A stretch of 64,000 bases of DNA, from NCBI RefSeq assembly GCF_036010505.1, contig NZ_CP108569.1:3545001-3609000 (forward strand), read 5' to 3'. A model generated the notes under the pieces. It was given only the letters and a program-made list of their open reading frames with translations, was not told the DNA's origin and searched no databases. A program made the translations under genes and the position numbers. The number at the start of each line of letters is the position of its first letter. Within the stretch, counting starts at the first letter, position 1. Positions 7,373 to 47,369 of this stretch are shown here, piece after piece. The stretch is from Streptomyces sp. NBC_01197 (GTDB taxonomy: Bacteria; Actinomycetota; Actinomycetes; Streptomycetales; Streptomycetaceae).

Positions 7373-9655
7373 ATGCAACTCGCCGCGATCATTGTGTCGC
7401 TGGTACTCACCGTGGTCGGTGTCGCGCTGTTCGCCCGAGCCATCGCCCAGATCTACCGCTCCGTGCGACTCGGTCAGAACGTGCCCGCGGGCACCCGCAC
7501 CGACGAACCCGTCCAGCGGACGATCACGGTGGTCAAGGAGTTCCTCGGCCACACCCGGATGAACCGCTGGGGCATCGTCGGGTTCGCGCACTGGTTCGTC
7601 GCGGTCGGGTTCTTCTCGCTCGTACTGACCCTGATCAACGCCCTGGGCCAGCTCTTCAAGGCCGACTGGGTGCTGCCGGTCATCGGTCACTGGCTGCCGT
7701 ACGAGATGTTCGTCGAGTTCATCGGTGTGATGACGACGCTCGGCATCCTCGTCCTGATCACCATCCGCCAGCTGTCGAAGCCGGACCGGCCGGGCCGCAA
7801 GTCCCGCTTCGCGGGCTCCAACTTCGGCCAGGCGTACTTCGTCGAGGCCGTCATCCTCATCATCGGCCTGGCGATCTACTCGCTGCGCGGACTTGAGGGC
7901 GCGCTGGCCGGCGTGCACGGCTACGACGCCGCGTACTTCCTCTCGTACCCGCTGGTCGCGGCGTTTCGCGGCACCAGCGTCAGCACGCTGCAGAACATGA
8001 TCTACCTGACCGCGATGGCCAAGATCGGTACGTCCTTCATCTGGATGATCGTGGTCGGGCTCAAGACGGACATGGGCGTCGCCTGGCACCGCTTCCTCGC
8101 CTTCCCCAACATCTGGTTCAAGCGCGACGCGCAGGGCGGCACCGCCCTCGGCGCGCTGCTGCCGATGACTTCGGGCGGCAAGGAGATCGACTTCGAGGAC
8201 CCGGGCGAGGACGACGTGTTCGGCGTCTCGCAGGTCGAGCACTTCTCGTGGAAGGGCCTGCTGGACTTCTCCACCTGCACGGAGTGCGGCCGCTGCCAGT
8301 CGCAGTGCCCGGCCTGGAACACCGGCAAGCCCCTCTCGCCGAAGCTCCTGATCATGTCGCTGCGCGACCACGCGCACGCCAAGGCGCCGTACCTGCTCGC
8401 CGGCGGCGGCAAGAACATGGAGGGCGAGGAGCAGGCCACGGCCGAGCAGCTCAAGGACGTTCCGCAGTCCGCGCTGGACGAGGCCGAGCGCCCGCTGATC
8501 GGGACGCTCGAAGAGAACGGCGTGATCGACCCGGACGTCCTGTGGTCCTGCACCACCTGCGGTGCGTGCGTGGAGCAGTGCCCGGTCGACATCGAGCACA
8601 TCGACCACATCGTCGACATGCGCCGCTACCAGGTGATGATCGAGTCCGCGTTCCCGTCCGAGGCGGGCACGATGCTCAAGAACCTGGAGAAGAAGGGCAA
8701 CCCCTGGGGGCTCGCCAAGAAGCAGCGCGTCGAGTGGACCAAGGAGGTCGACTTCGAGGTCCCGATCGTCGGCAAGGACGTCGAGGATCTCACCGAGGTC
8801 GACTACCTGTACTGGGTCGGCTGCGCGGGCGCCCTGGAGGACCGCGCGAAGAAGACCACGAAGGCCTTCGCCGAGCTGCTGCACATCGCGGGCGTCAAGT
8901 TCGCGATCATGGGCGGCGACGAGAAGTGCACCGGTGACTCCGCCCGCCGCCTGGGCAACGAGCCGCTGTTCCAGCAGCTCGGCCAGGAGAACGTCGCGAT
9001 GCTGAACATGGCGTACGGCGAGTCCGCCCCAGGTGAGGAAGGGGAAGACGAGTCGGCCAAGAAGCCCAAGGCGACGAAGAAGATCGTCGCCACCTGCCCG
9101 CACTGCTTCAACACCATCGCGAACGAGTACCCGCAGCTCGGTGGCGAGTACGAGGTCATCCACCACACCCAGCTGCTCCAGCACCTCATCGACGAGGGCA
9201 AGCTCATCCCCGTCACCCCGGTCGAGGGTCTGATCACGTACCACGACCCCTGCTACCTGGGCCGCCACAACAAGGTCTACACACCGCCGCGCGAGATCAT
9301 CGCGAAGGTGCCCGGCCTGCGCAGCGAGGAGATGCACCGGCACAAGGAGCGTGGCTTCTGCTGCGGGGCCGGCGGCGCGCGGATGTGGATGGAGGAGCGC
9401 ATCGGCAAGCGCATCAACAACGAGCGCGTCGACGAGGCGCTCTCGCTCAACCCGGACATCGTCTCCACCGCCTGCCCGTTCTGCCTCGTCATGCTGACCG
9501 ACTCGGTCAACGGCAGGAAGAACGACGGCAAGGCGAAGGAGTCGCTCCAGGTCGTCGACGTGGCGCAGCTGCTGCTCGACTCGGTGAAGCTCCCCGCGGA
9601 CCCGGCCGACGACCCGGCCGACGAGGACGCACCGGAGCCCGAGCCGGTGAAGTAA
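7373..9655 (+). CDS. Membrane-bound Fe-S oxidoreductase, EtfD-like (heterodisulfide-reductase-related)
   Basis: 760 residues. The N-terminal third has about five membrane helices (the first at residues 2-25) like a heme-b/quinone-reactive module. Then come two 4Fe-4S motifs (CTECGRCQSQCP near residue 302 and CTTCGACVEQCP near 393) and two cysteine-rich CCG domains (ending CPHCF...HDPCYLGRHN...FCCGAGGARMW...CPFC). This is the layout of mycobacterial Rv0338c/EtfD, which passes electrons from electron-transfer flavoprotein to menaquinone during fatty-acid oxidation. The carboxy tail is acidic (PADDPADEDAPEPEP). The role in Streptomyces is inferred from family. It is monocistronic, with a terminator directly downstream. 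Confidence 0.88.
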   Translation: MQLAAIIVSLVLTVVGVALFARAIAQIYRSVRLGQNVPAGTRTDEPVQRTITVVKEFLGHTRMNRWGIVGFAHWFVAVGFFSLVLTLINALGQLFKADWVLPVIGHWLPYEMFVEFIGVMTTLGILVLITIRQLSKPDRPGRKSRFAGSNFGQAYFVEAVILIIGLAIYSLRGLEGALAGVHGYDAAYFLSYPLVAAFRGTSVSTLQNMIYLTAMAKIGTSFIWMIVVGLKTDMGVAWHRFLAFPNIWFKRDAQGGTALGALLPMTSGGKEIDFEDPGEDDVFGVSQVEHFSWKGLLDFSTCTECGRCQSQCPAWNTGKPLSPKLLIMSLRDHAHAKAPYLLAGGGKNMEGEEQATAEQLKDVPQSALDEAERPLIGTLEENGVIDPDVLWSCTTCGACVEQCPVDIEHIDHIVDMRRYQVMIESAFPSEAGTMLKNLEKKGNPWGLAKKQRVEWTKEVDFEVPIVGKDVEDLTEVDYLYWVGCAGALEDRAKKTTKAFAELLHIAGVKFAIMGGDEKCTGDSARRLGNEPLFQQLGQENVAMLNMAYGESAPGEEGEDESAKKPKATKKIVATCPHCFNTIANEYPQLGGEYEVIHHTQLLQHLIDEGKLIPVTPVEGLITYHDPCYLGRHNKVYTPPREIIAKVPGLRSEEMHRHKERGFCCGAGGARMWMEERIGKRINNERVDEALSLNPDIVSTACPFCLVMLTDSVNGRKNDGKAKESLQVVDVAQLLLDSVKLPADPADDPADEDAPEPEPVK

Positions 9656-34959: not shown

Positions 34960-35033
34960 GCGAGTGTAGTTTAATGGTAGAACATGAGCTTCCCAAGCTC
35001 AGAGCGCGGGTTCGATTCCCGTCACTCGCTCCA
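34960..35033 (+). tRNA. tRNA-Gly (anticodon CCC), CCA encoded
   Basis: A cloverleaf of 74 bases. The acceptor stem GCGAGTG pairs with CACTCGC, the anticodon arm TGAGC-TTCCCAA-GCTCA gives anticodon CCC, the T arm is GCGGG-TTCGATT-CCCGT-like, discriminator T, then CCA. Its 3' half is the attachment site of the island that follows. Confidence 0.97.
34990..35033 (+). repeat. Attachment-site core within the tRNA (copy 1 of 3)
   Basis: 44 bases from the anticodon loop to CCA. They recur at 38976-39019 with one G-to-A change, and the last 31 recur perfectly at 47339-47369. tRNA 3' ends are the usual attB of tyrosine-integrase elements in Streptomyces. Confidence 0.9.
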
Positions 35034-35096
35034 CCAACTCAGGCCCAGGTCAGGGACATGATCCCCCACCCGGGCCTTTGTGTTGTCTAGACCGAT

Positions 35097-35583
35097 TCAG
35101 GCGTCGCGCACCACCTCCGCACCACCTGGGCCTGTTTTTGCCTGCTCAGCGCGCTTCTGCCGCTCTGCTCGGACCATCGTGTCCAGCCCACTCACGTCTT
35201 CTTTCTGACGCTGGTGATCCCGAGGGCTGATAGAGAACGACCTTCTCCGAGGACTGCCCGGCCCGCACCATCGTGTTTTTGAGCGTGGCGCCCGACCGGG
35301 TGGCCATCGTGCGCTCGGTGTGACGAAGGTCGTAGAACCGGATGCTCTCCGGCAGCCCTACCGCGGCGCGGACTTCCGCCGCTTGCAGCCGAAGGAGGAA
35401 CGACGGAACATTGCGCAGCGCCGTGTCGAATTCGTTCTCGAGGAGCGCCGTGGCGCCGGCGCGCTGGAGCAGATCCATCTCCAGGAGCCCTCCGGTATGC
35501 AGGTGCCCACTGTCACTACGTACGTCACGCCTCTGGGCATGGCACGAAAGGGCCCCTGCGAGGGAGAATCGGGTCGTTCGCAA
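35097..35583 (-). pseudogene. Decayed tyrosine integrase (C-terminal remnant)
   Basis: The catalytic-domain signature survives as GLPESIRFYDLRHTERTMAT (R-H-T box) and NTMVRAGQSSEKVVLYQ (the place of the GH box and active Tyr; His is now Gln). The reading frame then breaks. The natural end is still visible in another frame as GPGGAEVVRDA followed by a stop at 35097-35099. The N-terminal half is not recognisable. The gene lies just inside the tRNA, as in pSAM2-like elements, where int abuts attL. The product is almost certainly dead. Confidence 0.75.
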
Positions 35584-35980
35584 ACGCGACGCCCCATCAG
35601 CTTCACAATCCGCAATAGCGGCAGGGGCTGGCTCCCGCTCAGGGCGGCGGACACGGAGCCGACCACATCGAGGCGACCGTAGGCGCCGACAGTCGGCTTG
35701 GCGTTCACCTTGCCCATCCCACGGCTGCTACTTCGCCTTCGACCCTCTCGGCACCGCAGGCGTCGTTCGCTTTCCCGCGCCACTGCGAGGTGCGACCGCA
35801 GGTCTGGATGTTGCGCGAACCTCTACACCCGGCCCCGACCAAAGCCCTGGTCAGCCGTCAGGGGTCCCCCTGTCACGTGAACCACAGAAGTAGCCGCGAG
35901 CATTTTGCGCGTTGTATCCGCCAAGTAGCCTGCTGAGCAGCTGGTAACCGACTCGCCTGCGCATGAGAGGGCGAACCGTC
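35584..35980. other. Degenerate sequence between integrase remnant and toxin operon
   Basis: About 400 bases with no intact gene. It may hold more of the eroded integrase or excisionase. The promoter of the toxin operon should lie at its right end. Confidence 0.4.
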
Positions 35981-36289
35981 ATGCCCGACAAGGAATCGCC
36001 GGCGCAGTTGCACAAGCGCGCTGACACACTGCGCACCTGCGCCCGGCAGGCTCGCCACGCGGCACACGAGATGGGCACGTATCTCGACCGGGAAGCAAAG
36101 CAGGCGTCCGGCACCGGAGACGACCTGATCTGGATCGGTCCGTACGCTACGGATACAACCGGCACTCTGCAGGCCCGCAAGTCCGCCCTGCACCGCATGG
36201 CCTCGGACCTGATAGCCGATGCGCGCCGGTGGGAGACAGAGGCCATGCACCTTGAAGAGAAGGCCAACGGCAAGTCGGGGGCACGCTGA
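35981..36289 (+). CDS. WXG100-like small helical protein of the toxin operon
   Basis: 102 residues from the ATG at 35981 (GAGAGGGCG upstream). Two long helices flank a turn containing DLIWIGPYATDTTG, the position where WXG/ESAT-6-like partners of type VII secreted toxins carry W-x-G. Other stretches: LHKRADTLRTCARQARHAAH and ALHRMASDLIADARRWETEA. It likely acts as secretion partner or chaperone of the toxin. The next gene starts inside its stop codon (TGATG). Confidence 0.65.
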   Translation: MPDKESPAQLHKRADTLRTCARQARHAAHEMGTYLDREAKQASGTGDDLIWIGPYATDTTGTLQARKSALHRMASDLIADARRWETEAMHLEEKANGKSGAR

Positions 36290-36519
36290 TGGGATTCAGG
36301 GGATTCAAAGCCGACCGGGTGCGCAAGTTGGCAGGAGACCTGGACAAGGCCGGCCAGGACTCACCCGGACTACACCGACGGATCGCCGGCATACTCAACG
36401 AAGCCGAGGCAGCACTGGGCCCAGGGAAGAAGGCCACCAGCAGCCCGCAACTACAGCAGGTTCAACACTATGCGTCGCTCGGAACAGGAGCTCAGCTTCC
36501 TGGCGCGCTGAACGACTAA
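36289..36519 (+). CDS. Small helical protein, apparently shortened by a stop codon
   Basis: 76 residues: KADRVRKLAGDLDKAGQDSP, GLHRRIAGILNEAEAALGPG, KKATSSPQLQQVQHYASLG and a Leu-Pro-rich end. It is translationally coupled to the upstream WXG-like gene. Reading past its TAA in the same frame gives LPAIAKEIRRRCHMADEAGE before the next stop, which looks like natural protein, so the gene has probably been truncated by a point change or uses a very late alternative. It is likely a second secretion-partner protein of the toxin. Confidence 0.6.
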   Translation: MGFRGFKADRVRKLAGDLDKAGQDSPGLHRRIAGILNEAEAALGPGKKATSSPQLQQVQHYASLGTGAQLPGALND

Positions 36520-36551
36520 CTCCCCGCCATCGCCAAGGAGATAAGGCGACG

Positions 36552-37439
36552 GTGCCACATGGCAGACGAGGCGGGCGAGAGCACGGATTCGGCCAGGGCA
36601 TCACGCCGCTGGACGCCTTTAACGGGGTAACGCCGCAGCCGGAACCCAAGCCCAAGAAGAAGGGCTGGTTCCAAAAATACATCAGTGACCCCGTCGAGCA
36701 TGGCATCGAGGATGTCGGCGGATTCATGTCGTCGGTGTTCAGCTGGCGCAACATGCTTGACGCAGGTTCGGTAGCTCTCGGGGCTTTCCTGATGGCTGCG
36801 GGCGCGGGCATGGAAGTGGGTGGGGGCGCACTTGACATAACGGGAGTCGGGGCATTAGTAGGGGTCCCTGTAAATATCGCGGGTGTCGCAGTCATCGGCA
36901 CGGGCGGGGCGCTCGCGCTGGCCGGCTTCGGCGACTTCATGACCCGGATGTCCGACGGCGACACAGACGGCGCTTGGGACCGAAGCGGTAGTCAGGGCTC
37001 GTCCGGCGATGCTGCGGAACCACAGCCGGTCTCCGAGGAGCAACAACAGGCATTTACACAGAGTCAGCAGAAACTCTCCGGCCTCAGCAAGAACAAGCAG
37101 ATAGCCGAGGTCAACAAGGGCGTCGAGAAGGACGGCCAAAAGTTTAAGCCCGAGGGCGCCTTGACCAAAGGTGCGAAGCACGGGATCGATTGGCACGAGG
37201 GCCCGCAGCGCGCGAAGGTCGAGGGTAAACCGCAGGGGCGGTTCGGAAGTTCAGCCGATGTCAAGTTCGCCACGGAAAAGGGTGCGGAGCTCGGTCCCGG
37301 CAAAACCGGTTTCTTCAAACTGCCCAAAGACAATGACTGCATCGAATACATGCCGGATGGTTCGATACGCAAACCCAACTCCGTCTTCGTGAAAGTTCGC
37401 CCAAACGGGACGGTTCACGCATATCCCACCACTAGATAG
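36552..37439 (+). CDS. Polymorphic toxin candidate (type VII-like N-terminus, C-terminal toxin domain)
   Basis: About 295 residues from the GTG at 36552 (AAGGAGATAAGG upstream). N-terminal GFGQGITPLDAFNGVTPQPE and PKPKKKGWFQKYISDPVE are typical leader sequences of Streptomyces polymorphic toxins. A Gly/Ala hydrophobic region (residues about 70-130) could cross or insert in a membrane. After a Gln-rich linker comes a variable C-terminal domain of about 90 residues: HGIDWHEGPQRAKVEGKPQG, RFGSSADVKFATEKGAELGP, FFKLPKDNDCIEYMPDGSI and VFVKVRPNGTVHAYPTTR. I suspect an RNase of the BECR-fold group, by feel only. The immunity gene follows after 7 bases. Confidence 0.65.
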   Translation: MPHGRRGGREHGFGQGITPLDAFNGVTPQPEPKPKKKGWFQKYISDPVEHGIEDVGGFMSSVFSWRNMLDAGSVALGAFLMAAGAGMEVGGGALDITGVGALVGVPVNIAGVAVIGTGGALALAGFGDFMTRMSDGDTDGAWDRSGSQGSSGDAAEPQPVSEEQQQAFTQSQQKLSGLSKNKQIAEVNKGVEKDGQKFKPEGALTKGAKHGIDWHEGPQRAKVEGKPQGRFGSSADVKFATEKGAELGPGKTGFFKLPKDNDCIEYMPDGSIRKPNSVFVKVRPNGTVHAYPTTR

Positions 37440-37446
37440 GACAGCT

Positions 37447-37965
37447 ATGAGCTTTTGGATCCAGACAGGAAATCCCGCCCTTCTGGACGTAGACCAGGTT
37501 GCCGATAGTTTTTTCGAAGCGATCGGGCTTGTCTACCAGCCCGACACCGAATACCTGGTGCTGTCCTGGAACAACGTTCTTGTGCCGGTCAACTACGCCG
37601 AGGACCTATATGTTTTCGTCGACGACATCATCGTCCTGCTGGAGACGATCCAGGCCCCCGGATTCACCCATGCCCAGTTGGTCACCGGCGCCTCTTCGTT
37701 CTTCACCACCTGGGAGATCCGCCGGGAGGAAACGAACCTGATCATCGACTCCCGGTGGGAAAGCATCCTGGGCAGCTACGAGTTCGTGCTCAATGAGCGG
37801 AGCCAACTCACCCTCACTGCGGAAGAATTCACCCGCCAATGGCTGAAGATGCTCCGTCGAGTGGTCGACGACATCACCTCAAAAGCCGTTCGGATAGAGG
37901 ACGACGACATGTTCCTGCGGGCCAAAGCCCTACTAGCCGACTGTAGCGAACACGACGGGGCGTGA
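37447..37965 (+). CDS. Probable immunity protein for the upstream toxin
   Basis: 172 residues, acidic, no signal peptide or membrane segment (FWIQTGNPALLDVDQVADSF, VYQPDTEYLVLSWNNVLVPV, DDIIVLLETIQAPGFTHAQL, NLIIDSRWESILGSYEFVLN). It starts 7 bases after the toxin gene with AGGACAGCT as ribosome site. Small acidic cytosolic proteins directly after polymorphic toxin genes are the rule for immunity proteins. I do not recognise a named immunity family. Confidence 0.65.
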   Translation: MSFWIQTGNPALLDVDQVADSFFEAIGLVYQPDTEYLVLSWNNVLVPVNYAEDLYVFVDDIIVLLETIQAPGFTHAQLVTGASSFFTTWEIRREETNLIIDSRWESILGSYEFVLNERSQLTLTAEEFTRQWLKMLRRVVDDITSKAVRIEDDDMFLRAKALLADCSEHDGA

Positions 37966-37968
37966 GCC

Positions 37969-38712
37969 GTGACGCAGCCTGATATCTTCGCCCCCGACAC
38001 CGAATGGCTCCCCGAGCTAAGGCAACTGCTTGAGGCATACTGCTCCGTACCAGTACCCGCTGAAGAGTGCTTCGTCGATTCCGAAGAGTGTCCATCCCGA
38101 GGCATGCGCAGCTACCTGAGGGTGGCCGTCTACTATCCGGCGAGGCCGTTTCGTGCGACCCGAGAAATCGCCGAGATCATCCATCTGGGAATCAACCACT
38201 GGGACGTCAGTACCTGTCTAGCCACAATGCCCCCGATCATCCCGCCTCGCGGCAGAATCCGCGTCGACTGTCTCCTGGCAATGATCCCATATCTGGCGGC
38301 CTTCGAGAACGAGGGCTATCGCGAGGCGCCCATTCCGCCCGACTCTTCCTGGGAGTGGCGCGAACGCTTTCCCAACCTGTCTATACTGGTCTCCCACGCC
38401 GCCCGGCAATACCTCTCGACACCGAACGAAGCAATCTCCCCCCTCCTGTTCAAAGAGATATCAGACCACCGGATCGCCGCCGGACGCCGGGAACTCGACG
38501 AGCTGCGTGGGATCTGGCCCGCAGCACGGGATTGGGACGAGGCAACTGTCGGCCTTGGCATGACCAGCGCACCACCAGGACAGTTGTCGCCTGCCAGTTG
38601 GCTTGCACATCTGGACACCTCGGCCGAAAGGCATTTGGAAGCTACCGGGTATAAGCCGGCGAACACGCTCCATGCCGCCTACCCGGCCCACGATCTGCGC
38701 GCCCTTTTGTGA
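37969..38712 (+). CDS. Uncharacterised protein of the toxin operon (second immunity or accessory)
   Basis: 247 residues from the GTG at 37969, three bases after the immunity gene stop, so co-transcribed. Soluble and acidic in the first half (DIFAPDTEWLPELRQLLEAY, VYYPARPFRATREIAEIIHL), with a helical second half (HRIAAGRRELDELRGIWPAA). The last residues, RALL, lie 260 bases before the tRNA repeat. There are no catalytic motifs that I can recognise. It could protect against the same toxin or against a lost one. Confidence 0.55.
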   Translation: MTQPDIFAPDTEWLPELRQLLEAYCSVPVPAEECFVDSEECPSRGMRSYLRVAVYYPARPFRATREIAEIIHLGINHWDVSTCLATMPPIIPPRGRIRVDCLLAMIPYLAAFENEGYREAPIPPDSSWEWRERFPNLSILVSHAARQYLSTPNEAISPLLFKEISDHRIAAGRRELDELRGIWPAARDWDEATVGLGMTSAPPGQLSPASWLAHLDTSAERHLEATGYKPANTLHAAYPAHDLRALL

Positions 38713-38975
38713 TCGTCGCTGCGTCCCCGCCACACGATCAGCGGTGGTCCGGGCCCATCCTGAGCTGGAGGACGGCGGAGCAAGCGTTGACGAGCCCCGA
38801 GCACGGAGAGGCAACGTAGGCACGACACTCGTCCACCTCTCGAGCGTCGTGCCCATAGCGTGCCCTTCAGAGCGGACAACCACGGTCAACAGTGGCGCCA
38901 CCAGACCCTCTCTCCTGCCGCAGCACAACGAATCTGCCCAGGTCAGCAGCCATATGACCACGCAAGCCACGGTGA
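38713..38975. other. Island end without genes
   Basis: About 260 bases between the last toxin-operon gene and the second tRNA fragment. Nothing recognisable. Confidence 0.4.
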
Positions 38976-39019
38976 TTCCCAAGCTCAGAGCGCGAGTTCG
39001 ATTCCCGTCACTCGCTCCA
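38976..39019 (+). repeat. tRNA-Gly 3' fragment (attachment site copy 2)
   Basis: 44 bases identical to 34990-35033 except G to A in the T stem (CGCGAGTTCG). It marks the right end of the first island and possibly the left end of a second. A GTCTAGACC sequence follows both copy 1 and copy 2 at a similar distance. Confidence 0.9.
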
Positions 39020-39324
39020 TGACGAAGGCCCTGGTCGGCGACCAGGGCCTTGTTTGATGTCTAGACCACTTTCGGCGCGCATGCCATTCGCGGTCGATGA
39101 CGGCCCCGAATGGGGCGCTGCCAGCCCTTCTTTACTCCCCTGACGCAAGGTCATCCCGAAACCAGAGATCGACATCGGCGTGACCTGCGCCACTAGCGGT
39201 GTCGCGCGCGGGCGGTCGGCAGAGCGTGGACCGCTGCCGTCTGCCCGACGGGCTGGGCCGCTTGCGCTCGTTGGCGCTTTACGTCGGTGTTGAGCCTTCC
39301 CCTTGATCGTGGGCACCTGGTGAC
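39020..39324. other. Post-attachment-site region with hairpin, no intact gene
   Basis: A hairpin AAGGCCCTGGTC-GGC-GACCAGGGCCTT lies at 39024-39050, then TGTCTAGACC near 39057, similar to the sequence after the real tRNA (35084-35093). The rest holds no convincing gene; a minus-strand frame (39008-39316) may be the eroded end of another element's gene. Confidence 0.45.
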
Positions 39325-40705
39325 GGGTCTGTCAAACGAGCGGTGTAACTCGGGTTGTTGAGGGTTACTGGCGGGCTGCGGAGAGTCGGCCGTCGAAGGT
39401 GATGTCGAAGGCGTTCAAGGCTGTCTTCCAGCGCATGGTCCAGCGGGCTTGGCCCTTGCCGGTCGGGTCGAGCGACATGATTGCCATGTAGACGCATTTC
39501 AGTGCGGCCTGCTCGTTGGGGAAGTGGCCGCGGGCTTTCACCGCCCGTCGGATCCGCGCGTTCACGGACTCGATCGCGTTCGTCGTGCAGACGATGCGGC
39601 GGATTTCGGTGTCGAAGCGGAGGAAGGGAGTGAACTCCTCCCACGCGTTCTCCCAGAGCCGCACGATCGCCGGATACTTCTTGCCCCACGCGTCGGCGAA
39701 CTCCGCGAACCGCTCGAGTGCGGCGTCTTCGGTCGACGCGGTGTAGACGGGCTTGAGGAGTTTCGCGATCTTGTCCCAGTCCTGGCGGGCGGCATAGCGG
39801 AAGGAGTTCCGCAGCAGGTGGACCACACAGGTCTGCACGACCGTCTGCGGCCAGACGGTCTCGACCGCGTCGGGCAGGCCCTTGAGTCCGTCGCAGACGA
39901 GCATAAGGACGTCGTTCACGCCGCGGTTCTTGATCTCGGTGAGGATGTGCATCCAGTGCTTGGCGCCCTCGCCGCCGTCGCCGGCCCACAGCCCGAGAAT
40001 GTCGCGCCGACCCTCGGTCGTGACCGCCAAGGCCACGTAGATGGGCCGGTTGGCGACCGCGCCGTCGCGGATCTTCACGTGGATGGCGTCGATGAAGACC
40101 ACCGGGTAGACGGCGTCGAGCGGCCGGTTCTGCCATTCGGCCATGCCCTCGAGAACCTTGTCGGTGATCGTGGAGATCGTCTGACGGGACACGTCGGCGC
40201 CGTAGACCTCGGCAAGGTGGGCCTGGACCTCGCCGGTGGTCAGGCCCTTCGCCGCGAGCGAGATGACCATCTCGTCCACGCCGGACAGACGCTTCTGCCG
40301 CTTCTTGACGATCTTCGGCTCGAAGGAACCCTCACGGTCGCGGGGCACAGTTATCTCCACCGGGCCGACATCCGTCAGCACGGTCTTGGATCGGGTGCCG
40401 TTGCGGGAGTTGCCACCGTTCTTCCCGGCGGGATCGTGTTTGTCATAGCCGAGGTGGTCGGTGATCTCGCCCTCGAGAGCCGACTCCAGGAGCCGCTTGG
40501 TCAGCTGCTGGAGCAGCCCGCCCTCGCCGGTCAGCTGAAGGCCCTCGGCCTGAGCCCGGCCCACCAGCTCGTCAATCAACCGGTCGTCCACAGGCTTCGA
40601 CGGAACCGCCTCAGACGGCTCGGCAGGATCGGCCTCGGTCACGTTGTCGCTGGTCATCGATGCATCTTCCATGATCGGGAGTTACACCGAACGTTTTACA
40701 GTCCC
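39325..40705 (-). mobile_element. IS256-family insertion sequence
   Basis: About 1381 bases bounded by imperfect inverted repeats: GGGTCTGTCAAACGAGCGGT (39325-39344, continuing GTAACTC) and, at the right, the complement of GGGACTGTAAAACGTTCGGT (ending 40705). It holds one transposase gene. No clear 8-9 bp target duplication is visible, so the flanks may have rearranged. Confidence 0.85.
39365..40672 (-). CDS. IS256-family transposase (Mutator-like DDE)
   Basis: 435 residues and apparently intact. The N-terminal part includes LLQQLTKRLLESALEGEITD and HLGYDKHDPAGKNGGNSRNG (typical IS256 opening). The DDE residues are Asp in VVFIDAIHVKIRDG, Asp in LMLVCDGLKGLPDAV and Glu in CTTNAIESVNARIRR. It catalyses movement of the element that encodes it. 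A second ATG at 40657 is possible. Confidence 0.95.
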   Translation of the reverse strand: MEDASMTSDNVTEADPAEPSEAVPSKPVDDRLIDELVGRAQAEGLQLTGEGGLLQQLTKRLLESALEGEITDHLGYDKHDPAGKNGGNSRNGTRSKTVLTDVGPVEITVPRDREGSFEPKIVKKRQKRLSGVDEMVISLAAKGLTTGEVQAHLAEVYGADVSRQTISTITDKVLEGMAEWQNRPLDAVYPVVFIDAIHVKIRDGAVANRPIYVALAVTTEGRRDILGLWAGDGGEGAKHWMHILTEIKNRGVNDVLMLVCDGLKGLPDAVETVWPQTVVQTCVVHLLRNSFRYAARQDWDKIAKLLKPVYTASTEDAALERFAEFADAWGKKYPAIVRLWENAWEEFTPFLRFDTEIRRIVCTTNAIESVNARIRRAVKARGHFPNEQAALKCVYMAIMSLDPTGKGQARWTMRWKTALNAFDITFDGRLSAARQ

Positions 40706-40760
40706 GAAAGCGATCTTGGGGAGGCTGTCCGTGGCGCTGGTCGGTGCCGGTGGTCTGGCA

Positions 40761-41152
40761 CTAGCGGGCGAAAAAAGCGCTGACGGTCTTGCCGTCGGCC
40801 GCCCCGTTGGTCACGGAGGTGGTGCGAGCGAGATGGTTGACCACGGGCCAGCCGAAGCCTCCGGTGGCGCCGTTCAGGTCGGGGGTGCGCATGCTCGGTG
40901 GATGTGGGCTGTGGTCATGCACGGCCCTCGATGCTGTCGGGGTGGGCGGTGAGGTCCAGGGTGCAGGTGCCGCCCGCCGTGGCGCAGTGCGTTGGTGACG
41001 AGCTCCGAGACGACAAGGATCACGGTGTCGGCAGTCTCGGTCGCTCTCACGGACGGTATGAGACCTGCGAGGAATTCCCGGGCGCTTTGGCGTGCGTCGG
41101 CAATGCATGCCGTGGGGCGGGCAGTTGTCACGTTGACGCTCATTGTGTCCAT
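40761..41152 (-). pseudogene. Broken ATP-binding (RsbW/HATPase-like) regulator gene
   Basis: From the ATG at 41152 (CAGGGGGACCTG upstream) the frame reads MDTMSVNVTTARPTACIADA, RQSAREFLAGLIPSVRAT and TVILVVSELVTNALRHGG, the N box of anti-sigma-type kinases. It then shifts: TCTLDLTAHPDSIE is in a second frame and VHDHSPHPPSMRTPDLNGAT, GGFGWPVVNHLART and GKTVSAFFAR in a third. Two indels thus separate three good pieces. In an intact form it would be a Streptomyces ATP-binding protein of about 130 residues. Sequencing error would have to hit twice, so a true pseudogene is more likely. Confidence 0.8.
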
Positions 41153-41412
41153 CAGGTCCCCCTGGCCTTGCATCGTCACGCGGGTCCTGTCTGGCGTTTC
41201 TGACGGTGCTTCTGCCGGGCCTGCGGTGCGCCAACCGCGCAAGCGTCGGCTGTGGCGCGTGTCCTGAGCGGTCATCCGCATGGCCAGACGGGGCGGCTGT
41301 GGTGTTCGCGGCGTCGAGGCCGGTGGCATTGGCCTGGTCAGAGTGGGCGAGCCTGGCTGGAGCGGGGCCGCCGGGCACCCGTTCCGTGGCCGGTGTCAAC
41401 TGTCTCTCCACC

Positions 41413-42081
41413 CGGGCCTCGAAAATCTATGTCGGCCGGAGTAGACATTGGGGGGCGGTCTGGTTATGGTTTCTCTCGTAGAACAGAGAGACAGCAGGGC
41501 CCGGCAGAGACGAACTGGCGGGCAGCAGTAACCGCAGTAGCAGGACGGTGCGGTGGTGGAGTTTCGAAGCCAGGGTTGTTGCAGGACGGCGACGGGACTG
41601 ACGACCGGACCGGGCAGCCCGCAGTAATCAGGGGCCGCCGGAAGCAGTACCGCAGGGGCAGTACCCAGCAGTGAAGTGAGTAGTACCTCGGTGAAGGCGT
41701 CGGCTGCGGACGCGCGTGCCGGGAGGTTCGGCAGTGGGGTTCCAAGCCAGAGCAGACGCAGGACGGGCGACGGGGCTGGCTGCCGAAGAGTGGCGCTGCC
41801 GTAGGCCGCGGAGCAGTAGTACCAGCAGTAGGTAAGTGAGTGATCCCAGAGGGAAGAACGGAGGAGCCAGGCACCATCAGGATCGCCCGGGCGGAGTGTC
41901 GAGCCCGGGTACCGCAGGACATCGATAGTGAGGTGGTCTCCGGTCAAGCAACCGCGATCCCCGCAATCCACGCCCTCTCCCGGGCGTGCACGCGGAAACA
42001 GAAGGCCGACACAGTACGAGAGTCGGCAGATGGTGTAGCAGTTCCTTCGGGGCCCGGGTGCCAGATGGCATCCGGGCCCCT
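41413..42081 (+). ncRNA. Long structured leader or noncoding RNA upstream of the MerR/cold-shock genes
   Basis: A 650-base plus-strand stretch that is purine-rich and Ala-Gly-poor in coding sense, with no convincing gene in any frame. It contains an imperfect internal duplication: TTTCGAAGCCAGG...GCAGGACGGCGACGGG (41561-41595) against TTCCAAGCCAGAGC...GCAGGACGGGCGACGG (41740-41774), and CAGTACCCAGCAGTGAAGTG (41659-) against CAGTAGTACCAGCAGTAGGT (41814-). Then come hairpins CCCGGGC/GCCCGGG (41886-41909) and GCCGAC/GTCGGC (42005-42027). It ends in a 14-bp terminator-like stem. This looks like a structured RNA; its class is unknown to me. Confidence 0.45.
42049..42080 (+). terminator. Terminator-like stem 25 bases before the MerR-type gene (attenuator candidate)
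   Basis: GGGGCCCGGGTGCC (42049-42062), loop AGAT, GGCATCCGGGCCCC (42067-42080): 14 pairs with one G-U. It could end the leader RNA or control read-through into the MerR gene. Confidence 0.65.
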
Positions 42082-42105
42082 CAACGCGTTCCACAGAGAG
42101 GTGAA

Positions 42106-42444
42106 ATGACAGCAGACGACTCGTTCGGCCGTCTCGACGACGACGACTACCCCGCCTACACCATGGGCCGGGCCGCCGAAATGCTCGGCACCACGCAGGG
42201 TTTTCTCCGCGCCATCGGCGAAGCCCGCCTCATCACCCCGCTGCGCTCCGAGGGCGGCCACCGCCGCTACTCCCGCTACCAGCTGCGCATCGCCGCCCGC
42301 GCCCGCGAACTCGTCGACCAGGGCACACCCATCGAGGCCGCCTGCCGCATCGTCATCCTCGAAGACCAGCTCACAGAAGCCCAGCGCATCAACGCCGAAC
42401 ACCACCGCGCCGCCGAAGCGGAGCACCCGCCGTCCGCAAGCTGA
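42106..42444 (+). CDS. MerR-type small DNA-binding regulator
   Basis: 112 residues. YTMGRAAEMLGTTQGFLRAI, GEARLITPLRSEGGHRRYSR and YQLRIAARARELVDQGTPIE form a complete MerR winged HTH, followed by a short coiled-coil (RIVILEDQLTEAQRINAEHH) and no effector domain. AGAGAGGTGAA precedes the ATG. Genes like this occur beside cold-shock protein and DEAD-box helicase genes in many Streptomyces, as here, so it probably regulates that module. Confidence 0.9.
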   Translation: MTADDSFGRLDDDDYPAYTMGRAAEMLGTTQGFLRAIGEARLITPLRSEGGHRRYSRYQLRIAARARELVDQGTPIEAACRIVILEDQLTEAQRINAEHHRAAEAEHPPSAS

Positions 42445-43009
42445 GATGGTGTGTGTCCGCCCGCGCCTGACGCGTATGGCGCCCCCTGGGCGGGCTGCCT
42501 TTCGACTGGTTTGGCCACGAACGGTGGGTGCCGGCAGCCAGGCGACAGTGGTGGGAGCTGGGGCACTCCTGGCAGGGCCGCGCAGCAGCGGGTTGTGCGG
42601 CCCTGTCTGTGTTGGGACCGGCATACGCCCTGATGGGCCGCTGCCCGACAGGAGGGTGCCGCGGCGGTGGTTGCGCCTTGCGGGCCGCAAATGGCGACCG
42701 CTCCTGCTGGAACGTTGTGTTGCGGGTAGGGCAATATCTATTGCCGTGAGGCGAGATTTAAATGTTTCGCACGGGCATTTTGTTTAACGCAGCGGACCGA
42801 GTGGTTTTATTGACTGTACGCACGCCGCTACCGCGTGCTATTGTCGGCCCCAGTTGCAGTCGTGGTTCCCAAAAACTTCAACGCTTTTGTCGCTATTTTA
42901 ACTGCGGGAAGCGTTCTTTATTTCCGGTTATTCTCCGGCGGGGCATCATCGCGGCGACCCGGTATCCGTGGCTGCGGGTGCCGGCGTACTGCCCCAAGGG
43001 AGATATGAC
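42445..43009. other. Intergenic region and probable cold-shock leader
   Basis: 565 bases. The left 270 hold nothing recognisable. The right 250 (from about 42735) are AT-richer than the surroundings, with TTGACT at 42839-region and TTTATTTCCGGTTATTC near 42917. A long AT-rich 5' leader before the cold-shock gene is common for this gene class. Confidence 0.4.
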
Positions 43010-43213
43010 ATGGCGTCTGGCACTGTGAAGTGGTTCAACGCGGCTAAGGGTTTCGGCTTCATCGAGCAGGACGGTGGCGGCGCTGACGTGTTCGCCCACT
43101 TCTCGAACATCGCCGCCCAGGGTTACCGCGAGTTGCTCGAAGGCCAGAAGGTGACCTTCGACATTGCGGCGGGCCAGAAGGGCCCGACGGCCGAGAACAT
43201 CGTTCCCACCTGA
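43010..43213 (+). CDS. Cold-shock protein (CspA family)
   Basis: 67 residues, a single cold-shock domain: [20 protein letters not shown] (RNP1 KGFGFI) and [20 protein letters not shown] (RNP2 VFAHF). It binds single-stranded RNA or DNA and melts structure at low temperature. AAGGGAGATATGAC precedes the ATG at 43010. It is followed by a perfect terminator, so it forms its own short transcript between the MerR and helicase genes. Confidence 0.97.
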
Positions 43214-43230
43214 CACTGAAGCACACTTCG

Positions 43231-43270
43231 TAGCTGGGGCCCGCATCCCTCGGGGTGCGGGCCCCAGCTA
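43231..43270 (+). terminator. Terminator of the cold-shock gene
   Basis: A perfect 15-base stem: TAGCTGGGGCCCGCA (43231-43245) with its complement at 43256-43270. Confidence 0.9.
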
Positions 43271-43505
43271 CGGGCATTTCCCTCAGTGGTGCCACTGTGG
43301 GAATGCCACCGCTCTCAGTTCTTTCCCCCAGGGGTGCGCGTCTCTTCTGAGCCGCACCCGTCGACGTCCGGGATCTCACGCCCAGATGACGTCACCCATT
43401 TCAGCGCCTGCATCCCGCACCGCATTCACTGCAAAGCGGCTTCGCTTTCGCATTCCATTTCGGCCCGTTCTTGTGATTCCCCGCGCTGCTTTTCCGCTGC
43501 GGGAA

Positions 43506-43532
43506 TTCCTTGATACGTGCCGTATCAAGGAA
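43506..43532 (+). promoter_or_regulatory. Perfect hairpin that hides the helicase Shine-Dalgarno
   Basis: TTCCTTGATACG, loop TGC, CGTATCAAGGAA: 12 perfect pairs, 8 bases before the helicase ATG. The ribosome site AAGGAAGG (43527-43534) lies mostly in the 3' arm. It could be a temperature- or helicase-responsive switch, or as DNA a repressor operator. Confidence 0.6.
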
Positions 43533-43540
43533 GGTTCTCA

Positions 43541-45061
43541 ATGAACCCCGCACGTACGAACAACCGCAACTCCCGTACTCGCGGCCGTACCGGCGGCACC
43601 GCTTTCGGCTCCGGCGCCGGTTCAGGCCGGGGCAGCCGCTTCGGCTCGCCCGCCCCCAGCCGCTCCGGGGGTCCGAGCCGCTCGGGCGGCCAGGGCCGGA
43701 GGCCCGCTGCGGTCCAGGGCGAGTTCGCCCTGCCGAAGACGATCACTCCCGCGCTGCCCGCCGTCGAGGCGTTCGCCGATCTCGACATGCCAGAGCGGCT
43801 GCTGGCCGCGCTCACCGCACAGGGCATGCGCGTCCCGTTCCCGATCCAGGGCGCGACGCTGCCCAACACCCTCGCGGGCCGCGACGTCCTCGGGCGCGGG
43901 CGCACCGGTTCAGGCAAGACTCTCGCCTTCGGCCTGGCCCTGGTGGCCCGTACCGCCGGACAGTGCGCCGAGCCCTGCCAGCCGCTGGCTCTGATCCTCG
44001 TGCCGACGCGTGAGCTGGCGCAGCAAGTGACTGACGCTCTCACCCCCTACGCCCGCTCGGTCAGGCTGCGCCTGACCACCGTCGTCGGCGGAATGCCGAT
44101 CAGCCGACAGGTCAGCGCACTGCGCCGTGGAGCCGAAGTCGTCGTCGCGACACCGGGACGGCTCAAGGACCTCATCGACCGGGGTGACTGCCGGCTGAAC
44201 CAGGTCGCGATCACCGTCCTGGACGAGGCCGACCAGATGGCCGACATGGGCTTCATGCCCCAGGTCACCGCGCTCCTGGACCAAGTACGCCCCGAGGGCC
44301 AGCGGATGCTGTTCTCCGCCACTCTCGACCGCAACGTCGATCTCCTGGTCCGCCGTTACCTCACCGACCCTGTCGTCCACTCCGTCGACCCGTCCGCAGG
44401 CGCGGTCACCACGATGGAGCACCACGTGCTGCACGTCCACGGCGCGGACAAGCACCGCACGACGATCCAGATCGCGGCACGCGAGGGCCGGGTGATCATG
44501 TTCCTGGACACGAAGCACGCCGTCGACCGGCTGACGCAGGACCTGCTGAACAGCGGGGTGCGGGCCGCTGCCCTGCACGGCGGCAAGTCGCAGCCGCAGC
44601 GCACCCGGACTCTGGCCCAGTTCAAGACCGGGCACGTCACCGTGCTCGTCGCGACGAACGTCGCGGCACGCGGCATCCACGTCGACAACCTCGACCTCGT
44701 CGTCAACGTCGACCCGCCGACCGACCACAAGGACTACCTCCACCGCGGCGGCCGCACCGCACGGGCCGGCGAGTCCGGCCGTGTAGTCACCCTCGTCACC
44801 CCCAGCCAGCGCCGCGACATGACGCGCCTCATGACGGCAGCCGGCATCGTCCCGCAGACCACCCCGGTCCGCTCCGGGGAAGAAGCACTCATCCGGATCA
44901 CCGGCGCCCAGACACCCTCCGGCATTCCCGTGACGATCACCGCGCCGGCGGCCGCACGGCGTGAGCGCACCCGCAGCACGGCCTCCCGCGGCCGACGCAG
45001 CCCCGCCTCGGCTGCCCGGCGCGTGAGCGCGCGTCAGTCCTCCTTCGACGCGGCGGCCTAA
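43541..45061 (+). CDS. DEAD-box RNA helicase
   Basis: 506 residues from the ATG at 43541. An Arg/Gly/Ser-rich N-terminus (RNSRTRGRTGGTAFGSGAGS) is RNA-binding-like. All helicase motifs follow: Q motif region VPFPIQGATLPNTLAGRDVL, I GRTGSGKT, Ia PTRELAQQ, II VLDEADQM, III SAT, then ALHGGKSQPQRTRTLAQF, VATNVAARGIHVDNLDLVVN and HRGGRTARAG. It unwinds structured RNA, probably in cold adaptation with the CspA protein next door. Its TAA stop is formed by the junction with MITE copy 1. Confidence 0.95.
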   Translation: MNPARTNNRNSRTRGRTGGTAFGSGAGSGRGSRFGSPAPSRSGGPSRSGGQGRRPAAVQGEFALPKTITPALPAVEAFADLDMPERLLAALTAQGMRVPFPIQGATLPNTLAGRDVLGRGRTGSGKTLAFGLALVARTAGQCAEPCQPLALILVPTRELAQQVTDALTPYARSVRLRLTTVVGGMPISRQVSALRRGAEVVVATPGRLKDLIDRGDCRLNQVAITVLDEADQMADMGFMPQVTALLDQVRPEGQRMLFSATLDRNVDLLVRRYLTDPVVHSVDPSAGAVTTMEHHVLHVHGADKHRTTIQIAAREGRVIMFLDTKHAVDRLTQDLLNSGVRAAALHGGKSQPQRTRTLAQFKTGHVTVLVATNVAARGIHVDNLDLVVNVDPPTDHKDYLHRGGRTARAGESGRVVTLVTPSQRRDMTRLMTAAGIVPQTTPVRSGEEALIRITGAQTPSGIPVTITAPAAARRERTRSTASRGRRSPASAARRVSARQSSFDAAA

Positions 45062-45222
45062 GGGCTGTCCCGCAATTCCTGGTGGATCAGCGCGCGGCGT
45101 CAGATGCGGTGCATCGCAAGGCGGAGGGACGTCCGCATACTGGATGTATGTGGACGTTCCGGCAACGCGGCGAGGTGCCGTAGCTGTCGTCGCGCGCCCG
45201 CCGGGAATTGCGGGACAGCCCT
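45061..45222. mobile_element. MITE copy 1 (162 bp)
   Basis: Perfect 19-base inverted ends (AGGGCTGTCCCGCAATTCC and its complement), flanked by TA on both sides (45059-45060, 45223-45224). It is near-identical to 48775-48936 and 52340-52501. It has no coding capacity of its own. TA duplications and ends of this type suggest mobilisation by an IS5-like (IS427 group) or similar transposase that is not in the window. Confidence 0.9.
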
Positions 45223-45271
45223 TAGGACCCCCGTGATCAGGAAACTGACCCATCTCTGCAGGAGGCACGCT

Positions 45272-45670
45272 TTGACTCTGGTCCAGATGCAACCCCGCCC
45301 GGCGAAAGCCATACACAGTGCGCCGGCCGGCGCCATGGACACGGCCGGACCGCAGGTCTGTGACGACATGACCATCGAGGTGGCCCTCTCCCTCATGGCC
45401 AGTGCCCACACCAGGCACCTGCTCATCTGCGACAACGACCGCCTGTTCACCGGTTCGGTCCCCCAGGCCCAGCTCGCCGCCGTCCGCGACAGTTCCACGT
45501 ACACGGACCGGGTCCAGCTACGCGACATGCTCGATGACCGCGTGCCGTTCGCCTCTCCCGTGAAGGCAATCGCCGAAGCCAAGCACACAGTGCGCGGCCG
45601 CCGGCCCGATGCCCTGCGGGTCGTCGACGAGCACGGCAGTGCCCTGGGCGTCCTCGCCCTTCCCCGCTGA
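45272..45670 (+). CDS. CBS-domain-like small protein
   Basis: 132 residues from the TTG at 45272 (GGAGG six bases upstream). The core resembles a single CBS-domain pair half: VCDDMTIEVALSLMASAHTR, HLLICDNDRLFTGSVPQAQL, LRDMLDDRVPFASPVKAIAE and DALRVVDEHGSALGVLAL. CBS domains bind adenosyl ligands. It likely belongs to the helicase transcript, now interrupted by MITE copy 1 between the two genes. Confidence 0.75.
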   Translation: MTLVQMQPRPAKAIHSAPAGAMDTAGPQVCDDMTIEVALSLMASAHTRHLLICDNDRLFTGSVPQAQLAAVRDSSTYTDRVQLRDMLDDRVPFASPVKAIAEAKHTVRGRRPDALRVVDEHGSALGVLALPR

Positions 45671-45719
45671 ACCGCCTCACCGCGGTGGAACCATCCCTTT
45701 TCTCTCCCTGTGAGGCATC

Positions 45720-46031
45720 ATGCGCTGTGTCATCGCCCGCTTCCCGTTCGACCTCACCAAGAACGGCGTCCTGGAATCCATGAAGGGCGTCAAGCCCGAA
45801 CAGGTCATCGGCGAGTCCGTGATCATCGGCCGCCGCACCTACCCGATCAAGCAGGTCGGACAGGTCATCACACGCCAGGACCGCCGCGATTTCAGCGCCG
45901 GTGAAATCCTCCGCGCCATGACCCAACTCGGCTTCACCTGCCCCGGCCTCCCCCACAGCGCCGCGCCCGAGCACGCCCCCAGCCCGATCCAGCAGGCTTC
46001 CGCGATGCTCGGCGCCCCTGCCGCCGTCTGA
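45720..46031 (+). CDS. Conserved small protein of the cold-shock/helicase module
   Basis: 103 residues: MRCVIARFPFDLTKNGVLES, MKGVKPEQVIGESVIIGRRT, YPIKQVGQVITRQDRRDFSA and GEILRAMTQLGFTCPGLPH. TGTGAGGCATC precedes the ATG. It lies 50 bases after the CBS-like gene and is followed by a terminator, so it closes the module. It has the look of a small RNA- or DNA-binding protein, but no named family is recognised. Confidence 0.75.
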   Translation: MRCVIARFPFDLTKNGVLESMKGVKPEQVIGESVIIGRRTYPIKQVGQVITRQDRRDFSAGEILRAMTQLGFTCPGLPHSAAPEHAPSPIQQASAMLGAPAAV

Positions 46032-46064
46032 CCGACCGGACAGGCACGAGCCACCAGAACCACA

Positions 46065-46102
46065 GTGAGGGTCCGACCGCCAAACGCCGGCCGGACCCTC
46101 AC
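46065..46102 (+). terminator. Terminator of the helicase module
   Basis: GTGAGGGTCCG (46065-46075) pairs perfectly with CGGACCCTCAC (46092-46102). Confidence 0.8.
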
Positions 46103-46170
46103 GGCGTGCTTGGGACCCTTCCAGTCCGGCAGCCCTCATCCGAACGAGCGATCCGTCCTGCTGGCCAAGC

Positions 46171-46518
46171 GGGGTACCCGAAGATGGTGGACACCTTCGA
46201 CAGCACTGTCCCGCATCCGTACGCGAAACGATTTCCGGGATCGTCACGGCCGGCCGCGACGGCGACGAAAGCCGTATTCGGTCCCTGCTCGAACGTCTGG
46301 CCAAAGTGGCGGACACACCCGCTCTCCTCCTGCTGCGCAGCCGTCTCAACGAGGACCTGCACGACCCTGACGCACACACGCCGCACCGACCCGCTCATGG
46401 CCGAACGGCCTCACCGCATCCCGCGGCGCCCATCACGAGCGGCGAGTCCAAGGGGGAGATCGCGGACCGTATCGAGCGGCAGTCGCCGCATGACGACCAC
46501 TCACTCCGCCTCATGTGA
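46171..46518 (+). pseudogene. Gene fragment without a start
   Basis: One plus frame is open and protein-like in its middle: VRETISGIVTAGRDGDESRI, RSLLERLAKVADTPALLLLR and SRLNEDLHDP, a helical repeat-like sequence. No start with a ribosome site is visible upstream, and the tail becomes Pro/His-rich. It is probably the remnant of a small cytosolic protein gene. Confidence 0.4.
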
Positions 46519-46759
46519 TGAGGTCTGCGCCACGCCCTCTGATCGAACCATGGACGGAGCGGTCGTCCCTCCTCGGCACGGCTGACCAGGCCCTTGACCC
46601 TGGAGTTCGAGGCAAGCCCCAGCCCATGGGGGACCGAGGCGTCGCCAGGGGGCGGGAAGCCCCTTCTCCGCTCGGCCGCCGAGGCGTTGGGATCGCTGAA
46701 GACATCGAAAGTTCGTGTGCATAATGTGAAGACAACGCGACGTAACTACGGGGGAAGCC

Positions 46760-47080
46760 ATGGGGAAGGCAGAAGAACGCAGCACTCTCTACCACCAGTT
46801 CCTCGGCCTGGCGGAACAGATTCAGCGCCTTATGAGCACGGATCGAGGCCAGGCGCCGAGCCAGCCCGCGCGCTGGAAGGAGCTCAGCGAGCCGGAGGTG
46901 AGGAGAGTCCTTCACCGCCGGGACTACATCCTGGTTCCCGGCGCTATCCCGTCCGCTGACACCCTCCGCGAGTGGAACGCCCACGCGGCCCACGTGCTCA
47001 AGACAGCCGACGGAACTCCGCTCAGAGATGACGCAGCCGGGTGTGGGCAGCGAAACGCTGAGTACGAGCCCGCTCCGTAG
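46760..47080 (+). CDS. Hypothetical protein
   Basis: 106 residues from the ATG at 46760 (GGGGGAAGCC upstream; CATAAT near 46720 may be a -10). MGKAEERSTLYHQFLGLAEQ, IQRLMSTDRGQAPSQPARWK, ELSEPEVRRVLHRRDYILVP and SADTLREWNAHAAHVLKTAD. Soluble, mixed helical. No family recognised. It sits between remnants, 260 bases before the third tRNA fragment, so it may be island cargo. Confidence 0.5.
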   Translation: MGKAEERSTLYHQFLGLAEQIQRLMSTDRGQAPSQPARWKELSEPEVRRVLHRRDYILVPGAIPSADTLREWNAHAAHVLKTADGTPLRDDAAGCGQRNAEYEPAP

Positions 47081-47338
47081 CGGACCCCCGCACATCGAGC
47101 CCGGCCCGGCCCATTGACAGTGGGTGGCTGCAATCCTGACTGGATGCCCGGCGACGCTCATAACCGAAGCCGATGCCCCCGTCGGGTGCCTAGACCAGTA
47201 TGCAGAATCCTCAGCCACGGATTCCTCAAACACAGCAGGACGGGAAGCAGCCCAGGACCGATGGCTCCGCTCGGCCCACTGTCGCCCCAGGCGGATGCCC
47301 TCCCCCGAAGACCCGCACCGTCGCGCGCCCCCATCCGT

Positions 47339-47369
47339 AGCGCGGGTTCGATTCCCGTCACTCGCTCCA
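47339..47369 (+). repeat. tRNA-Gly 3' fragment (attachment site copy 3)
   Basis: 31 bases identical to the tRNA end (35003-35033), from the T stem to CCA. Directly to its right lies a cut IS630 transposase gene, whose minus-strand frame runs into the fragment. Confidence 0.9.

Follow-up and report, generated by a model that had tools for sequence, protein, structure and literature searches.

What kind of toxin system is encoded by five closely spaced open reading frames in Streptomyces sp. NBC_01197, and why do two dissimilar immunity-type genes stand behind a single toxin domain? The frames lie within a 64,000-nucleotide stretch of contig NZ_CP108569.1 (positions 3,545,001 to 3,609,000; referred to here as the window), and a first-pass annotation had described them as a WXG-like protein, a small helical partner, a polymorphic toxin, an immunity candidate, and a fifth unknown gene, carried as cargo on a tRNA-bounded island. 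The five frames and their tight packing were found as described, with a 1-base overlap between the first two frames and subsequent gaps of 32, 7, and 3 bases (Table 1). Overall, the system is of a known kind, namely a polymorphic toxin operon in which domain exchange has probably left an orphan immunity gene; what it carries is an undescribed toxin-immunity family, in a degenerate copy. We consider it probable that this operon, located on a tRNA-Gly island, had its last toxin domain replaced by a toxin-immunity cassette, which orphaned the old immunity gene, and that the toxin gene was split thereafter.

A toxin gene in two frames

Two intact relatives were available for comparison, including (i) a paralogous operon in the same genome (L002, near G000:C1:4862-4864 kb), which encodes a 107-residue WXG-like protein, a 388-residue toxin, and a 253-residue protein, and (ii) a whole operon with an intact 398-residue toxin in a second genome (locus L084, genome G941). 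Residues 1-73 of the 76-residue frame are 52% identical to residues 1-72 of the paralogue toxin, and the 295-residue frame aligns with the same toxin from residue 109 on; against the L084 toxin, the two pieces are 47% and 67% identical, respectively. As both frames match one intact protein in L084 and in the paralogue, the 76-residue frame is, by alignment, the start of a toxin gene that is split into two frames in the window. The pieces are parted by a stop codon and a frame change, and similarity to the paralogue persists in the short intervening stretch (18 residues, 39% identity, expect value [E] 0.045 against that one protein). A separate small helical partner, as initially annotated, was thus ruled out in favor of a broken-off toxin gene start, which makes the operon degenerate. 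In a pairwise comparison with L084, the ratio of nonsynonymous to synonymous substitution rates (dN/dS) was low for the C-terminal domain (0.14) and highest for the 76-residue piece (0.38), values that are rough because dS was 1.0-2.4 and a single pair was compared. This pattern suggests that the break is recent or that the domain is still in use, and the one comparison fits both.

With regard to export, the 102-residue WXG-like protein did not match the WXG100 model in a Pfam search, despite its invariant W-x-G. A match to the type VII secretion ATPase EccC over the cut-off was found once in the genome, with a neighbouring part in another frame, and in 0 of 14 control genomes. The invariant W-x-G and the presence of EccC make export of the intact relatives by type VII secretion plausible, and loss of the N-terminal piece makes export of the window's toxin unlikely. 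The best EccC match (G000:C1:2636260-2638937) spans two reading frames of 575 and 930 residues; the ATPase may be broken or split, or the assembly may be wrong at this point. Another EccC-like frame, 1555 residues long, lies at about 3135-3137 kb.

The C-terminal domain and the gene behind it

A contig scan identified further loci with the toxin domain in Streptantibioticus silvisoli (L033), Streptomyces violascens (L034), and Streptomyces sp. 8L (L035), and a scan of 382 genomes of the order added L083 and L084, which yielded six loci with the window. The domain is broken in L035 and was left out of the alignment; the other four domains are 65-69% identical to that of the window. H45, R55, H124, and Y126 are invariant in all five sequences, as are FGS, ADV, and HAYP. 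Among the motifs proposed initially, HGIDW, FGSxADV, and HAYP were hence conserved throughout, whereas the second histidine of WHEGP varies (H, T, S, N, T). As suspected in the first-pass annotation, the domain matched no Pfam or NCBIfam model above cut-off.

Assignment as the C-terminal domain of a polymorphic toxin is supported by its occurrence on differing scaffolds, by the occurrence of the same scaffold with another domain, and by the adjoining immunity gene. The window and L084 share one scaffold, while homology to the window's toxin piece begins only at residue 49 in L033, residue 115 in L083, and residue 152 in L034. The N-terminal frame of L035 is WXG100-like, the N-terminal part in L034 is glycine/proline-rich and cut by the contig end, and L083 (1501-3336) carries the domain on a 612-residue protein with many long hydrophobic stretches, unlike the WXG-type scaffolds, and with no Pfam family above cut-off. 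Conversely, homology to the paralogue toxin stops at residue 159 of 295, where the paralogue continues into an RNAse_A_bac domain.

The 172-residue gene follows the domain at each of the six loci, with gaps of 6-8 bases, which supports its earlier designation as an immunity candidate; the other five family members are 42-64% identical to that of the window. We infer from this constant pairing that the protein may neutralise the domain as its cognate immunity protein. Searches of Pfam and NCBIfam gave no match over the cut-off for it either. Four more of the 392 genus genomes carry the family without the domain; the gene is intact in one of them (G199) and broken or incomplete in the other three. 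In G078, a single gene separates a family member from the EndoU toxin upstream of it. In L033 (5326-6261), the immunity protein shares its reading frame with a DUF6086 domain (E 8.5e-24). In all six loci, the guanine-plus-cytosine (G+C) content of domain and immunity gene (0.547-0.626) is lower than that of the measured flanks of the same locus (0.617-0.735); no such dip is seen for the paralogue's RNase A-like (ribonuclease A-like) domain. With differing N-terminal scaffolds, constant immunity pairing, and lower G+C content, the domain and the 172-residue gene thus look like an exchangeable toxin-immunity cassette.

The fifth gene, predicted activity, and rival readings

The fifth gene, previously called unknown, belongs by homology and location with the CdiI-like immunity genes of RNase A-like toxins. 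In the paralogous operon, the toxin C-terminus matches RNAse_A_bac (E 5.8e-22), and the 253-residue product of the next gene matches CdiI_2 (E 3.3e-12) and is 49% identical to the window's fifth protein; the two paralogue proteins also match the toxin and CdiI chains, respectively, of the Yersinia kristensenii CdiA-CT/CdiI complex (5e3e_B, E 9.6e-10; 5e3e_A, E 8.3e-4). A profile of three fifth-gene family members, including that of the window, matches 5e3e_A (E 0.0038); neither the 247-residue protein alone nor its L084 counterpart matches the CdiI_2 model. A sample of 13 Streptomyces genomes included six with RNAse_A_bac (PF18431), and five of these carry a relative of the fifth protein directly behind the RNase A-like domain (L091, L089, L090, L095, L096; E 8e-60 to 1e-4); no relative was detected in the sixth, G004, at E <= 1e-3. 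Another relative, annotated as CDI (contact-dependent inhibition) immunity, has the same position on an S. avidinii plasmid (L098, NZ_CP108617.1), for a total of six loci where the family follows an RNase A-like domain without the cassette (L091 being the paralogue L002). On the plasmid (25119-31394), two WXG genes precede an RNase A-like toxin; a hypothetical gene comes next, followed by a detached domain of the RNase A-like type and then by the CDI immunity gene, an arrangement that is likely another product of domain exchange.

No RNase A-like domain was found beside the fifth gene in the window and, within the locus DNA examined, only the window and L084 among the six cassette loci have a relative of this gene (none in L033, L034, L035, or L083). 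The fifth gene is thus probably an orphan immunity gene from another toxin, and in the simplest history the cassette took over from an RNase A-like domain whose immunity gene was left in place. We infer that the ancestral operon, probably linked to type VII secretion through its WXG partner and carried by a small island at tRNA-Gly, would have resembled the intact paralogue, with an RNase A-like domain followed by a CdiI-like immunity gene; the low-G+C cassette would then have been inserted between the shared N-terminal region and this immunity gene, leaving the latter as an orphan. A displacement model of this kind exists for CDI and Rhs loci. As L084 shows the same gene order, with 66% identity in the fifth protein, both genomes may have inherited the outcome of a single event. 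The toxin gene would have broken into two frames later, in this genome, with the domain and both immunity genes remaining open.

As for the activity of the domain, the profile search proposed in the first-pass annotation yielded no family or profile match (for RNAse_A_bac, no Pfam match and an hhalign probability of 0.07% against six Streptomyces members). In comparisons of the predicted structure, also proposed there, the four best of 1000 aligned chains come from CDI or polymorphic toxin-immunity complexes; Foldseek scores were weak. The 247-residue family resembles the immunity protein of the RNase A-like toxin to which the predicted fold of the domain comes closest. Compared with that Yersinia system (PDB 5E3E; RNAse_A_bac/CdiI_2), the domain has no sequence relation and the 172-residue protein no sequence match to the immunity protein; the active-site residues H175, R186, T276, and Y278 would correspond to H45, R55, H124, and Y126, with histidine where threonine stands. 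Two invariant histidines also fit the pattern of Ntox50/Ntox19-type BECR toxins (N-terminal His plus a C-terminal His replacing S/T), although the domain did not match Pfam models of these clades. RNA of the target cell is the most likely substrate of the domain, to be cleaved through this predicted His/Arg/His/Tyr site, which the 172-residue protein would block by binding. That the domain has another activity, or a fold that merely resembles the RNase A-like/BECR arrangement, would agree with the lack of family and profile-profile matches and with the weak Foldseek scores; the origin of the best-scoring chains and the likeness of the invariant residues to the metal-independent RNase of 5E3E make this explanation unlikely but not negligible. 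A more far-reaching proposal, which we hold to be nearly as likely as not, is that the domain represents a new RNase toxin family, metal-independent, of RNase A-like/BECR fold and with a His/Arg/His/Tyr active site. Its low-G+C cassette, immunity gene included, would move through Streptomycetaceae across different export scaffolds and would here have ousted an RNase A-like toxin with a similar fold, whose old immunity gene was retained.

Two further explanations concern the genes around the domain. The fifth gene could be a second functional partner, either because one toxin is the target of the two immunity proteins alike or because the 247-residue family is a general accessory of the scaffold; its retention in L084 (dN/dS 0.12) and the predicted fold of the domain are consistent with this, but we regard it as doubtful, given its presence, within the locus DNA examined, at only two of the six domain loci and the six cassette-free loci where the family directly follows RNase A-like domains. 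Even more improbable is domestication of the split gene, with the 295-residue frame translated in the cell from its GTG and teamed with the 172-residue gene to form a toxin-antitoxin pair, by which the island would be stabilised. A purine-rich stretch upstream of the GTG and the open domain and immunity frames with low dN/dS would fit, yet a recent break accounts for this pattern equally well, retention extends to the glycine-rich pre-toxin region, and expression from the GTG is putative.

The tRNA-Gly island and relation to known systems

The operon is the main content of a first island of about 4 kb, and its status as island cargo was borne out by tRNA-Gly(CCC) and a direct repeat of the tRNA 3' end (Table 1); no such matches were expected by chance (100 shuffles). 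A third copy at 47340-47369 indicates that the window probably carries two tandem islands. The putative integrase remnant had no match in a Pfam search.

Table 1. Features of the operon and its island (window coordinates)
Feature	Position	Strand	Remarks
tRNA-Gly (CCC)	34960-35033	+	Integration site; left repeat is its 3' 44 bases (34990-35033)
Possible integrase C-terminus remnant (weak)	35146-35583	-	PHROG integrase, E 0.048, residues 72-117 only
WXG-like small protein, 102 residues	35981-36289	+	W-x-G invariant in 3/3 aligned sequences, window's included
N-terminal piece of toxin gene, 76 residues	36289-36519	+	Ends at stop codon absent from intact relatives
Rest of toxin gene, other frame, 295 residues from GTG	36552-37439	+	Glycine-rich pre-toxin region and toxin domain
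C-terminal toxin domain with helical lead-in, 130 residues	37047-37436	+	Probable RNase (predicted)
Cognate immunity candidate, 172 residues	37447-37965	+	Directly 3' of domain in 6/6 loci
Second, probably orphan, immunity gene, 247 residues, GTG start	37969-38712	+	Kind standing behind RNase A-like toxins
Right repeat, copy of tRNA 3' end	38976-39019	+	44 bases, 98% identical; closes first island

At this site, the tRNA 3' end is repeated in tandem. Three copies lie within the window (35004-47369), and in the related genomes G004 and G012 the tRNA is accompanied by six further copies, all on one strand, spread over about 38 kb and 50 kb, respectively; the site looks like a hotspot with stepwise accretion. 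In the Streptantibioticus silvisoli locus, the same cassette lies ~2-3 kb 3' of a tRNA-Gly(CCC) (8159-8232), i.e., the same type of site, with no second tRNA repeat found within the locus. A Mutator-family transposase (39365-40672; Pfam E 1.4e-128), which we take to be IS256-like, adjoins the first island on the right.

In the features covered by the account of Zhang et al. (2012; PMC3482391), the operon resembles polymorphic toxin systems that use the type VII (WXG) route for delivery, which combine an exchangeable C-terminal domain, an adjoining immunity gene, a WXG-like partner, and further downstream immunity genes; it differs from them in its split toxin gene and in a domain and immunity protein without library matches. 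Similarity to Bacillus subtilis YxiD-YxxD (PDB 9v8i; PMC12700104) is only middling (10% identity). An immunity gene stranded downstream once its toxin domain has been exchanged also recalls the orphan immunity genes reported for CDI/Rhs loci (PMC3150448); unlike those loci, this is a Gram-positive WXG-type operon whose genome keeps a paralogue with the RNase A-like domain.

These findings correct the gene count of the operon and reveal its toxin gene as broken, and they add an undescribed toxin-immunity family to the Streptomyces arsenal. One genome thus appears to hold the before and after of a domain exchange, with the presumed old domain in the paralogue and a new cassette in front of an old-type immunity gene in the window, which makes the displacement model, as well as protection by retained immunity genes, directly testable.
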